DNA of 64,000 nt from contig NZ_CP017448.1 in NCBI RefSeq assembly GCF_001753165.1, positions 1,010,462-1,074,461 of the forward strand, given 5' to 3'. Below the pieces are notes generated by a model that saw only the letters and a list, made by a program, of their open reading frames with translations, did not search any database and was not told where the DNA came from. Source of the stretch: Acidihalobacter aeolianus (GTDB lineage: Bacteria > Pseudomonadota > Gammaproteobacteria > DSM-5130 > Acidihalobacteraceae). Below are positions 37,569 through 42,730 of the stretch, in pieces. A program made the translations under genes and the position numbers. Each line of letters opens with the position of its first letter. Within the stretch, counting starts at the first letter, position 1.

Positions 37569-37615
37569 TTCCCGCGATAATTATCTTAGAAATCCCCCTC
37601 CTGGCTGTTTATTTC

Positions 37616-37822
37616 CAGAATATTCAAGGCTACGTTCTGTGGAGAAGGGGCGTTCGACCTCTAAAAACAGCGACATCTATAAACACTTCGAAGGGAAGTA
37701 TTAATTACATAAATGCAGGTGGTTTTACAAACGCCAGAATATTAGAGGATGCTGTTTGACATTTTTGCGACAAGGTTTAGTCTTGTCTCGCAAACAAATG
37801 CAGGGCTAATCAGAATATTAGA
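37616..37822. repeat. Three direct repeats of CAGAATATT upstream of the porin gene
   Basis: CAGAATATT occurs at 37616-37624, 37735-37743 and 37811-37819; the last two extend to CAGAATATTAGA (12 bases). They lie in the AT-rich 303-base leader of the FadL-type gene and flank the hairpin at 37764-37794. The pattern suggests binding sites for one regulator. Confidence 0.65.
37764..37794 (+). promoter_or_regulatory. Inverted repeat downstream of a TTGACA box in the porin leader
   Basis: TTTGCGA-CAAG (37764-37774) pairs with CTTG-TC-TCGCAAA (37782-37794), with one two-base bulge. It begins two bases after TTGACA (37756-37761) and would overlap the -10 region, so it looks like an operator. No good -10 hexamer is visible at 17 bases. 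Confidence 0.5.
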
Positions 37823-37871
37823 CAAAACTAATAATTATGGTTTTGAGTATACACAGAACCCGGAGGATTCG

Positions 37872-39215
37872 ATGAAACTCAATTTGAAGCATTCTTTGAT
37901 TGCCAGTTCGATTGCTGCCGCGCTGGGATTTGCCGGCGCCGCACATGCTACCAATGGTTACAATTTGATCGGTATTGGCGCTTATCAGATGGGTATGGCC
38001 GGAGCCGTCGTATCCGATCCGGGTTCTGCCATGACTGCAATTTCCAACCCGGCCGGCATGACGGAAGTTCGTCCGCAGACCGATTTCAGCATGGAAGCCT
38101 TCCTGCCCAAGCGTGACGTGAACTTCACCGCGACCGGCGGGCAGAAAATTTCCAGCGACAGCAACATGTACGGCGTGCCTGCACTGGGCTGGTCCGCCCC
38201 GACCTCCAGCGGTTCCAATGTCTATTTCGGTGGCGGCATGTACGGCACCTCCGGCATGGGCGTTGACTATCCCTACACGGCCAATGGCGTGATGCCTCAG
38301 AGTCAGGTACCGCCCGGGCAAGATGCGTCATTTAATGGTTTCAGCAATATTGCGTTGTGGCAGATGGCTCCGGCGCTGGCCTGGAAGGTCAACGATCAGT
38401 TGAGCCTGGGTGTGGCGCTCGATATCGGCTACATGTCGGCCTCGTTCCTGCAGTCCTATGGTTTTGCGGCCGCACCTTCTCCTGCTGGTGGAACGGCCTA
38501 CGGCCCGTACAGCATCAACATGACCCGATCGGCCAGTGCCTTCGGCCTAGGTGCAACTGTTGGCCTACTGTACAAGATCAATCCGATGTGGACGGTGGGT
38601 GCTGAATATACGAGCTCCCAGACTTACAAGCTCAATTACAACTTGGCTCCCGGAGATATCACAGTACCTGGTGGTGCCAGCCCGTTCGCACCTGCCGGTT
38701 ACGCGTTCCCTGGCGGCAAATACACGCTGACGATGAAGACGCCGCAGACAGCCTCCCTCGGTGTCACGATGAACCCCACGAGTACGTTGGCGGTGAGCGC
38801 GCAGGTGAAATGGATCGACTGGAAGGATGTGATGAACAATCTAAGCATCACCGGTCCGATGGATTTCACAGGCTTCACACCGAAATGGAAGAGTCAAACG
38901 GTAGTGGCTGTGGCTGCTAATTATTACGTCACCCCGAAATTCCAGGTGCGTGCAGGTTACAACTACGCCAAATCGCCGATCGACAGCAACGCGGTAGCCT
39001 ACAACCTCATTCTGCCAGCGGTCGTAGAAACCCATTACACGGCGGGTTTCACCTATGATCTGAACAAGCGCTGGACGATTGGCGGTGCATACATGATTGC
39101 GCCGCAGAAATCCTATACCGCACCGATGACTGCCAGCATGACCGATCCGAGCAAGGGTCAGAAAGTTTCCCTTTCCGAGCAGGCGGTATCGTTCAATATC
39201 GGCTACAAGTTCTGA
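37872..39215 (+). CDS. FadL/OmpP1/TodX family outer-membrane porin
   Basis: 447 residues. Signal peptide MKLNLKHSLIASSIAAALGF ending AHA, then TNGYNLIGIGAYQMGMAGAV and the conserved AISNPAGM (the NPA hatch motif of FadL). The remainder is an aromatic-rich beta barrel ending in Phe (SFNIGYKF). FadL-type porins pass hydrophobic molecules across the outer membrane. GGAGG seven bases before the ATG. Monocistronic, ended by the terminator at 39245. Substrate unknown. Confidence 0.92.
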   Translation: MKLNLKHSLIASSIAAALGFAGAAHATNGYNLIGIGAYQMGMAGAVVSDPGSAMTAISNPAGMTEVRPQTDFSMEAFLPKRDVNFTATGGQKISSDSNMYGVPALGWSAPTSSGSNVYFGGGMYGTSGMGVDYPYTANGVMPQSQVPPGQDASFNGFSNIALWQMAPALAWKVNDQLSLGVALDIGYMSASFLQSYGFAAAPSPAGGTAYGPYSINMTRSASAFGLGATVGLLYKINPMWTVGAEYTSSQTYKLNYNLAPGDITVPGGASPFAPAGYAFPGGKYTLTMKTPQTASLGVTMNPTSTLAVSAQVKWIDWKDVMNNLSITGPMDFTGFTPKWKSQTVVAVAANYYVTPKFQVRAGYNYAKSPIDSNAVAYNLILPAVVETHYTAGFTYDLNKRWTIGGAYMIAPQKSYTAPMTASMTDPSKGQKVSLSEQAVSFNIGYKF

Positions 39216-39244: not shown

Positions 39245-39272
39245 AAGGGCCATGGAAACGTGGCCCTTTTTT
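39245..39272 (+). terminator. Rho-independent terminator after the porin gene
   Basis: A 10-bp stem (39245-39254 with 39259-39268, one G-T wobble) with GAAA tetraloop overlaps a six-T run. Confidence 0.92.
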
Positions 39273-39327: not shown

Positions 39328-40272
39328 ATGTCCTTTATGGGAAATCTGTTGCGGAGTTTATTTGCAGTGGCATTTTTATCTGCAGTTACATTCAGTGCGA
39401 ATGCTGCGGAAAATTACAAGCCGTTTATTCTTGCCACGGCAGGTAACGGCGATTTTCACACACAGGTGGAAAAGGTTCAGGCGGCATTGACCCAAGCGGG
39501 TTTCAAGATCGTGGGCACATACAATCCGGACTTAAGCACTTTCCATCCCTATCAGGCCGCGACGATTTTTATCGTGACCAACCCGACGCTACTGGCCGAC
39601 GCGGCGAAAACTCCGCGTGGCGGATACGGCGCCGTGATGCGGGTTGCCGTGACCCAGACGAATGATCAGGTTCAGGTGGCCTACGTCAATCCGGTGTACG
39701 TGCAATACGCTTACCGCATGAAGGCTGATCTGGCACCGGTGAAGGCCGAACTTGCCAAGGCGCTGGGTGATCAACAGTCCTTCGGCGCAAAAGGCCTGAC
39801 TGCAGATGCACTTGAGCATTATCACTACACCTTCGGCATGGAATATTTCAACGAACCCTACCAACTCAACAGCTTTGGCTCGCATGCGCAGGCAGTTGCC
39901 AAGGTCAAATCCCTGCTGACCAAGGGTGTCAATGGTCTGCATTACTTGTATGAGTTGAATATTCCCGGGACCGATCAGACGGTTATCGGCGTCGCTATGG
40001 ACGACAAGGACAATAAAAACGTCAACGATGCCTATCAGATGTCGGTCGTCGATTTCCATAAGCTCAAGGGAACGGCTTATTTGCCTTATCAGATTCTGGT
40101 GAAAGGATCGAATGTCGAGGCATTAAATATGCGCTTCAGGATGGCGGTGTTCTTCCCTGATCTGTCGATGATGGGCGATCACTCGTTTATGACCTTGATG
40201 TCGGCGCCGGCCGCGCTCCATCGTGCATTAGCCAAGGCGACTGGGACCACTTACAGTGAGCCGTTATTCTAG
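39328..40272 (+). CDS. Secreted DUF302-like protein
   Basis: 314 residues from ATG 39328, chosen because GGAGG lies seven bases upstream. Signal peptide MSFMGNLLRSLFAVAFLSAV ending ANA. Residues about 30-140 (VEKVQAALTQAGFKIVGTYN, TIFIVTNPTLLADAAKTP, QVQVAYVNPVYVQYAY) resemble DUF302, a small alpha/beta domain often secreted. The second half (LHYLYELNIPGTDQTVIG, MRMAVFFPDLSMMG-like region) is not recognised. Own terminator at 40298. Function unknown. Confidence 0.75.
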   Translation: MSFMGNLLRSLFAVAFLSAVTFSANAAENYKPFILATAGNGDFHTQVEKVQAALTQAGFKIVGTYNPDLSTFHPYQAATIFIVTNPTLLADAAKTPRGGYGAVMRVAVTQTNDQVQVAYVNPVYVQYAYRMKADLAPVKAELAKALGDQQSFGAKGLTADALEHYHYTFGMEYFNEPYQLNSFGSHAQAVAKVKSLLTKGVNGLHYLYELNIPGTDQTVIGVAMDDKDNKNVNDAYQMSVVDFHKLKGTAYLPYQILVKGSNVEALNMRFRMAVFFPDLSMMGDHSFMTLMSAPAALHRALAKATGTTYSEPLF

Positions 40273-42613: not shown

Positions 42614-42730
42614 GGTGACTCCCGTTGTTAGGGTATTGCCTAGCATATTAGTAGGTTATGATATAAACGTGAAATAATACCACGTGCGGTGAAATATTCA
42701 CCCCTGTCCGCCAACACGATTAAACCTCGC

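Follow-up and report, generated by a model that had tools for sequence, protein, structure and literature searches.

A conserved ATTAG-N6-CTAAT dyad in the leader of an Acidihalobacter FadL-type porin gene as a candidate operator of a persulfide-sensing ArsR repressor

The leader of a FadL-type porin gene of Acidihalobacter carries an inverted repeat, ATTAG-N6-CTAAT, that is conserved in the leaders of five genomes, is enriched in a spacing-specific manner before other FadL homologues, is present before ArsR sensor genes and has a second copy in the same genome before a YgaP-like gene. From these sequence comparisons we infer that the dyad would be bound by a persulfide-sensing two-cysteine ArsR protein, and we consider it likely that this protein represses fadL and that sulfane sulfur induces the gene. 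The initial annotation of this DNA had pointed to three copies of a short repeat in the leader and to a dedicated regulator sensing the cargo of the porin. The regulatory region that it saw is best read as genuine, and the unit that it named as the wrong one: a specific regulator of the leader is well supported by the comparisons below, and the element it would recognize is the 16-bp dyad and not the named repeats.

The analysed stretch, here called the window, covers 64,000 nucleotides of a genome (G000) of 3.53 Mb in two contigs. Abstracts describe the Acidihalobacter group as iron and sulfur oxidizers. The porin gene is preceded by alr, and its product covers positions 5-415 of the 421 of the PF03349 profile, which places it in the FadL/OMPP1/TodX family. 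The features of the region are as follows.

37616 to 37624, + strand: first copy of CAGAATATT, without a counterpart in the alignments of the relatives, where this part aligns poorly
37741 to 37756, + strand: candidate weak operator O1, ATTAG-AGGATG-CTGTT, with 2 mismatches to ATTAG-N6-CTAAT, from the alignments
37756 to 37761, + strand: -35 element TTGACA, kept in 5 of 5 aligned family members
37767 to 37791, + strand: bulged inverted repeat GCGACAAG...CTTGTCTCGC over the -10, read from the sequence
37778 to 37783, + strand: probable -10 element TAGTCT, 16 bases past TTGACA, from the alignment, with TATTCT at this place in G003
37817 to 37832, + strand: candidate main operator O2, ATTAG-ACAAAA-CTAAT, with half-sites invariant in five genomes and a variable spacer
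37862 to 37866, + strand: ribosome-binding site GGAGG, from the sequence
37872 to 39215, + strand: FadL/OMPP1-type outer-membrane protein of 447 aa with no cysteine by count, PF03349 at E 2.2e-30
39245 to 39268, + strand: terminator-like stem followed by a T run, one of 3 such sites in the region against 2.6 expected
39328 to 40272, + strand: conserved partner gene behind fadL, whose product matches neither Pfam nor NCBIfam at E 0.001

The terminator-like stem behind the gene suggests that fadL is probably monocistronic. The TTGACA-N16-TAGTCT promoter is conserved across the five aligned leaders, G003 with its variant included, and the pair was not among the outputs of a consensus promoter scan. 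Both the TTGACA box and the bulged inverted repeat over the expected -10 had been noted in the initial annotation and are present, the latter covering the probable TAGTCT. The inner CAAG/CTTG of this repeat is kept within the genus only and its outer arms are not retained in the leader alignments of G003 and G004; as a conserved element it was rejected since it is not kept beyond the genus.

The three copies of CAGAATATT also lie in the leader as described (37616, 37735 and 37811), and the two at 37735 and 37811 extend to CAGAATATTAGA. In the window these copies are the sole ones on either strand (0.07 expected; at most 2 copies in any of 100 window shuffles), exact CAGAATATTAGA occurs genome-wide at just the two leader places, and 2000 dinucleotide shuffles of the 303-base leader gave any 9-mer three times in 3 cases and any 12-mer twice in 5. 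The genome scan proposed with the repeats placed 3 of 22 copies in this one leader, and the 19 others elsewhere in the 3.53 Mb. That their number exceeds chance speaks for the original view, in which a dedicated regulator binds to the repeats as such. Against that view, CAGAATATT is found on the coding strand in 0 of the 4 orthologous loci (G001-G004), the very absence that had been named as its refutation, and the part that is kept is ATATTAG with its partner CTAATA. The dyad overlapping the third copy passes the same comparison and is kept in all five leaders. We regard the copies as regulator sites as barely credible; the orthologous leaders rule out CAGAATATT as the binding unit, and its first copy is probably a chance occurrence.

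The conserved dyad O2 takes in part of the third CAGAATATT and can be written as an 18-mer, TATTAG-N6-CTAATA, at 37816-37833, whose completing CTAATA had been overlooked. It is placed at about +27 to +42 of the predicted transcript, downstream of the promoter, and its spacers in the five aligned family leaders are ACAAAA, ACAAAA, ACATAA, ATTAAT and AAAACC. A 6-bp dyad with spacer 6 arises in 9.3% of shuffles of the leader and is by itself unremarkable; the case for the dyad rests on its conservation and on other genomes. The second candidate, O1, overlaps the first base of the -35 and contains the end of the second CAGAATATT; the centres of O1 and O2 are 76 bp apart. The same frame is seen in G001 (ATTAG-TGAAGC-CTGTT) and G002 (ATTAG-CGAAGC-CTGTT) and was not seen in the leader alignments of G003 and G004. 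O1 is possibly a weak second operator at the level of the genus, and its CTGTT may be kept merely by adjoining the -35.

The motif was derived from the Acidihalobacter-type family and then tested on the leaders of FadL homologues outside it. Thirty loci from a genome search (L027-L056) contributed 26, with L038, L042, L049 and L055 left out as partial or second pieces, and 63 related loci (L072-L134) contributed 58, with L080, L101, L127, L128 and L131 left out for a start near a contig end or a partial match; L084, L086, L105 and L133 also dropped out of the leader count as no start codon was accepted. The 80 leaders counted comprise 6 from Acidihalobacter (L072 repeats L031) and 74 others, of which 56 are non-redundant. 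At no more than one mismatch ATTAG-N6-CTAAT occurs in 12 of these 56 outside leaders, exactly in 3, as compared to a mean of 0.68 and a maximum of 3 in 200 dinucleotide-shuffle sets of the same leaders. Spacings from 0 to 15 other than 6 were found in 0-3 outside leaders each and the 29 other permutations of the half-site in at most 2 each; among 140 half-sites of similar composition the runner-up was ATAAG, one letter from ATTAG, with 6 leaders. The positive leaders belong to Halothiobacillus, G048, G023, G052, G013, G037, G005, L093 and L114. Since the 12 include three from Halothiobacillus and two from one genome (L039, L053), the independent positive lineages are at most about nine. The dyad is absent from the other 44 of the 56, Thiomonas and Hydrogenophaga included. 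In Halothiobacillus, where an alignment of six leaders also supports it, the dyad lies further upstream, at -217 to -239; at such a distal site activation is as possible as repression. In the leader count some start codons assigned for Halothiobacillus are too far upstream, and the distances recorded there are shifted accordingly.

An indication of the type of regulator comes from G048, in which fadL and a divergent two-cysteine ArsR gene are separated by 144 bases that contain an exact dyad. A cysteine pair (ILC..., LYC) is present in the product of this gene, and the solved structures nearest to it are HlyU, NolR, the Biofilm growth-associated repressor (BigR), an ArsR entry (6o8l-6o8o, which we take to be SqrR) and YgaV. 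Relatives of this regulator, taken at E <= 1e-18, were found in 27 of 274 genomes of the class (28 genes). Upstream of these BigR/HlyU-class arsR genes the dyad is present at no more than one mismatch in 16 of 22 regions (23 parsed minus one redundant), 9 of them exact, with any other spacing in at most 2 and half-site permutations in at most 1. A further five such genes, for which the 260 bases before the match and not before the start codon were scanned, showed it in 3 of 5, 2 exact, giving a total of 19 of 27 genes, one of which is the shared G048 region. In 16 of the 23 parsed genes the site lies within 100 bases of the start codon. Such sites close to arsR, together with the G048 site between fadL and arsR, fit autoregulation. 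The neighbours of these arsR genes are, by eye from translations, rhodanese-like, flavoprotein (SQR-like) and metallo-lactamase-fold genes. Tandem exact dyads, 16-48 bases apart, stand before four BigR/HlyU-class arsR genes (L177, L182, L185, L193). Among other ArsR genes none of the 28 parsed (29 fetched) has a site at no more than one mismatch, neither the 10 of the YgaV-like class nor the other 18.

Genome-wide, the exact 16-mer is found twice each in G000, G001 and G002 and three times in G004, with controls at 0-1 per genome. The only copies in G000 are in the fadL leader and before a YgaP-like_TM gene (PF11127, E 1.2e-12) which sits, by eye, between citrate-synthase-like and release-factor-like genes; the dyad also directly precedes what by eye is the same gene in G001 and G002, with the spacers CAAACA, ATTTCA and ATTTTA in G000, G001 and G002. 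In G004 an exact dyad lies 25 bases before a rhodanese gene and another near a permease-like gene (by eye). As G000, G001 and G002, all of the genus, have this exact dyad ahead of a YgaP-like gene and G004 has it ahead of a rhodanese gene, a regulator dedicated to the porin is not supported. E. coli offers a parallel, as passages of PMC9774250 describe YgaV as a repressor of ygaVP, with ygaP being rhodanese-like. Another exact site stands in both G023 and G052 ahead of a gene whose small product resembles sulfur oxygenase reductase below the match threshold (E 0.006 and 0.004).

The genes with this weak SOR-like match (L201 1549-1980 and L210 1539-1985) begin 32 and 22 bases past the exact dyad, and their genomes belong to different families. 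At up to 2 mismatches the controls for TATTAG-N6-CTAATA exceed the real counts in each of the five genomes (28 in G000 versus 46 in the control), so that only exact matches are informative on the genome scale. Exact matches in G023, G048, G013, G037 and G052 number 2, 11, 5, 1 and 11 versus 0, 6, 0, 1 and 4 in controls, and several of the 15 inspected among these 30 places are inside genes and look like chance. Within the window, TATTAGTAGGTTATGATA at 42646-42663 has 2 mismatches to the dyad and identical 18-mers at matching distance behind fadL in G001 and G002; the two genes that flank it are divergent, and it may be part of a promoter or a weak site. About 145 kb from fadL an sHdr-type cluster (L232, G000:C1:888000-906000) contains, by eye, rhodanese-like, LbpA-like and lipoate-ligase-like genes. 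These 18 kb contain no site at up to 2 mismatches; fadL is thus not linked to the core oxidation genes by the operator, and co-regulation of the sHdr genes with fadL was rejected.

Nine ArsR-like matches were found in G000. That at G000:C1:233596-233910 (L216; match 233632-233898, start codon 233596) has a cysteine pair and the helix SQSNISQHLA, and its closest structures are BigR (E 5.7e-18) and YgaV, so that this genome does encode a two-cysteine ArsR of the BigR/YgaV class. Close relatives of it occur in all five genomes, and by eye a rhodanese-like gene lies downstream of it; a second two-cysteine ArsR (G000:C1:2248903-2249259) is less similar. Upstream of the candidate gene there are only sites with 2 mismatches, in a constant place (ATCGG-N6-CTAAT in G000, G001 and G002; 3 mismatches in G004), and simple autoregulation is disfavoured since none of the 10 parsed genes of its YgaV-like class, from this and other genomes, has a site at no more than one mismatch. 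The five family genomes hold no close relative of the G048 regulator (best E 4e-15 to 4e-14 at 32-34% identity, none at 1e-18), which leaves room for another regulator. We put the proposed assignment of this ArsR to fadL at about even chances.

In the mechanism that we propose, a sigma-70-type promoter, TTGACA-N16-TAGTCT, would be under the control of a two-cysteine ArsR repressor of the BigR/SqrR/YgaV/HlyU class, most likely the one whose gene is followed by a rhodanese-like gene. A repressor dimer would sit on ATTAG-N6-CTAAT at 37817-37832, near the predicted transcript's 5' end (first 45 bases), possibly aided by the weaker site at the -35 (37741-37756), and would block initiation or early elongation. 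Sulfane sulfur in the cytoplasm would then bridge the two cysteines and release the repressor, and the porin would be made. Most likely the porin would pass hydrophobic zero-valent sulfur (S8, polysulfanes), and the system would act as a feed-forward uptake switch. Our confidence in the ArsR-operator reading is slightly lowered by the stricter NolR motif, to which the dyad does not conform, and by the lack of own sites in the class of the local candidate.

This lack also speaks for an operator of another family, for example LysR-type (T-N11-A), MarR/SlyA-type (TTAG..CTAA) or Lrp, in which case the sites at arsR genes would reflect a shared higher regulator. Indeed a 16-bp ATTAG/CTAAT dyad is compatible with several consensus types, the generic LysR box T-N11-A included, and the Halothiobacillus site is far upstream of the start codon. 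The proximity of the sites to the start codons of BigR/HlyU-class arsR genes and the G048 site between fadL and arsR argue against it, as do the fit of the dyad to the published NolR consensus and its absence, at no more than one mismatch, from all 28 parsed other ArsR genes, and we hold a different family to be unlikely. That the inverted repeat functions at the RNA level, as a hairpin of the 5' UTR (for stability, as a roadblock or as a small-RNA target), instead of as a protein-binding DNA site appears very unlikely. The dyad does lie in the predicted 5' UTR of five family members (G023 by eye) and forms a stem in the predicted fold, but with z -0.36 the fold is no more stable than expected by chance, 69 of 200 shuffles being equally or more stable, and there is no Rfam match, and in G048 and Halothiobacillus the dyad is apparently upstream of the likely promoter (by eye). 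A structured RNA element or Rfam family was rejected on the same two grounds of fold stability and Rfam search.

As to the cargo, the ArsR-operator reading leads us to propose, tentatively, that in sulfur oxidizers the FadL porin is the outer-membrane gate through which elemental sulfur or polysulfane enters, and that a persulfide sensor in the cytoplasm switches its synthesis via ATTAG-N6-CTAAT. If this were true, the first sulfur atoms arriving would open the gate wider in a feed-forward loop, and it would be plausible to speak, with the initial annotation, of a regulator sensing the cargo of the porin. We infer the import of zero-valent sulfur from the gene neighbourhood. Among 93 FadL loci, which include duplicates (L031/L072 and L042/L054 are the same genes), 21 have a homologue of the partner gene, in Proteobacteria and Acidobacteriota, and the product of 39328-40272 is possibly a partner of the porin. 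Beyond it lie a conserved small gene and a lipoate-ligase-like gene (PF21948); in G030 a FadL homologue adjoins relatives of these two along with a radical-SAM gene that presumably resembles LipS. Of nine loci in MAGs of Planctomycetota and Acidobacteriota (L073-L081), 8 have an ArsR gene no more than about 1 kb from FadL; in the loci with a nearby ArsR gene the dyad was not found (best 3-4 mismatches). Further genes of the L073 cluster encode TusA, FlpD and two FAD/4Fe-4S proteins of HdrA-like appearance, and similar genes are seen by eye in other loci. FadL near ArsR and TusA/FlpD/Hdr-like genes was noted in MAGs of both phyla (L073-L078, L080, L081), which suggests either that a sulfur-oxidation cluster has passed from one phylum to another or that the bins are contaminated. 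Overall, the FadL neighbourhoods appear to point to sulfur.

The operator may also be as we read it and the cargo something else, fatty acids or other hydrophobics, with the porin being part of a sulfide or oxidative stress response; this alternative, too, we can put forward only tentatively. Members of the FadL family are known mainly for fatty acids and aromatics (compare the PF03349 description). Passages of PMC9774250 describe control by E. coli YgaV of genes well beyond sulfur, for example those of anaerobic respiration, and in an excerpt of PMC10487802 FadL of acid-stressed A. thiooxidans is interpreted as a membrane-lipid gene. Indirect evidence against such a cargo is given by the lipoate-ligase-like neighbour, by the TusA/Hdr-like clusters in other phyla and by the rhodanese and YgaP-like co-targets. 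Among the open-access papers searched we found none that connects FadL with sulfur uptake or with an ArsR sensor; the transporter described in passages of PMC10812762 is YedE1E2 and not FadL, and for sulfur a review of Acidithiobacillus (PMC6335251, passage) names only 'special outer-membrane proteins'. A FadL porin under what looks like a persulfide-sensor-type operator in several gammaproteobacterial lineages would be a concrete candidate for the route by which solid, insoluble sulfur enters sulfur oxidizers through the outer membrane. The dyad ATTAG-N6-CTAAT is moreover a searchable operator that connects BigR/HlyU-class regulators with targets in genomes.

Among known regulators, the ArsR/SmtB protein NolR of Sinorhizobium has a consensus close to the dyad. 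The dyad conforms on both strands to its loose form, (A/T)TTAG-N9-A(T/A) (PMC12445080 and PMC8960804, excerpts), as ATTAG-ACAAAACTA-AT, and on neither strand, by eye, to the stricter (A/T)TTAG-N8-GA(T/A)G; the loose consensus has 308 sites in S. meliloti according to the same excerpts. The linked regulators have NolR among their nearest solved structures, yet as described in these excerpts it serves nodulation genes and is without cysteines, whereas the linked regulators here have two and their other targets are sulfur-transfer genes. HlyU of Vibrio cholerae, the closest solved structure to the fadL-linked ArsR of G048, binds an AT-rich 17-bp dyad of similar size, TAATTCAGACTAAATTA (PMC4330345, excerpt), which differs in spacing and letters, and is described there as an activator of a haemolysin gene. 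In Hyphomicrobium denitrificans, a thiosulfate oxidizer, sHdrR and SoxR are ArsR repressors freed by sulfane sulfur (passages of PMC12423496 and PMC10451225). Their targets are sox and shdr genes, and the sHdr region of G000 is without the dyad; neither a word starting with 'porin' nor the phrase 'outer membrane' occurs in the main text of PMC12423496. The SqrR site ATTC-N8-GAAT (PMC9774250, in the passages cited) shares with the dyad the outer ATT/AAT and the N10 spacing, but not the exact site, the inner letters here being AG/CT instead of C/G. The persulfide sensors SqrR, YgaV and BigR are two-cysteine ArsR proteins with YgaP-like and rhodanese targets, as here, and the targets described in the passages cited include no outer-membrane porin. 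The mechanism is best read as that of a known repressor class, with the novelty in its link to a FadL porin as a target.
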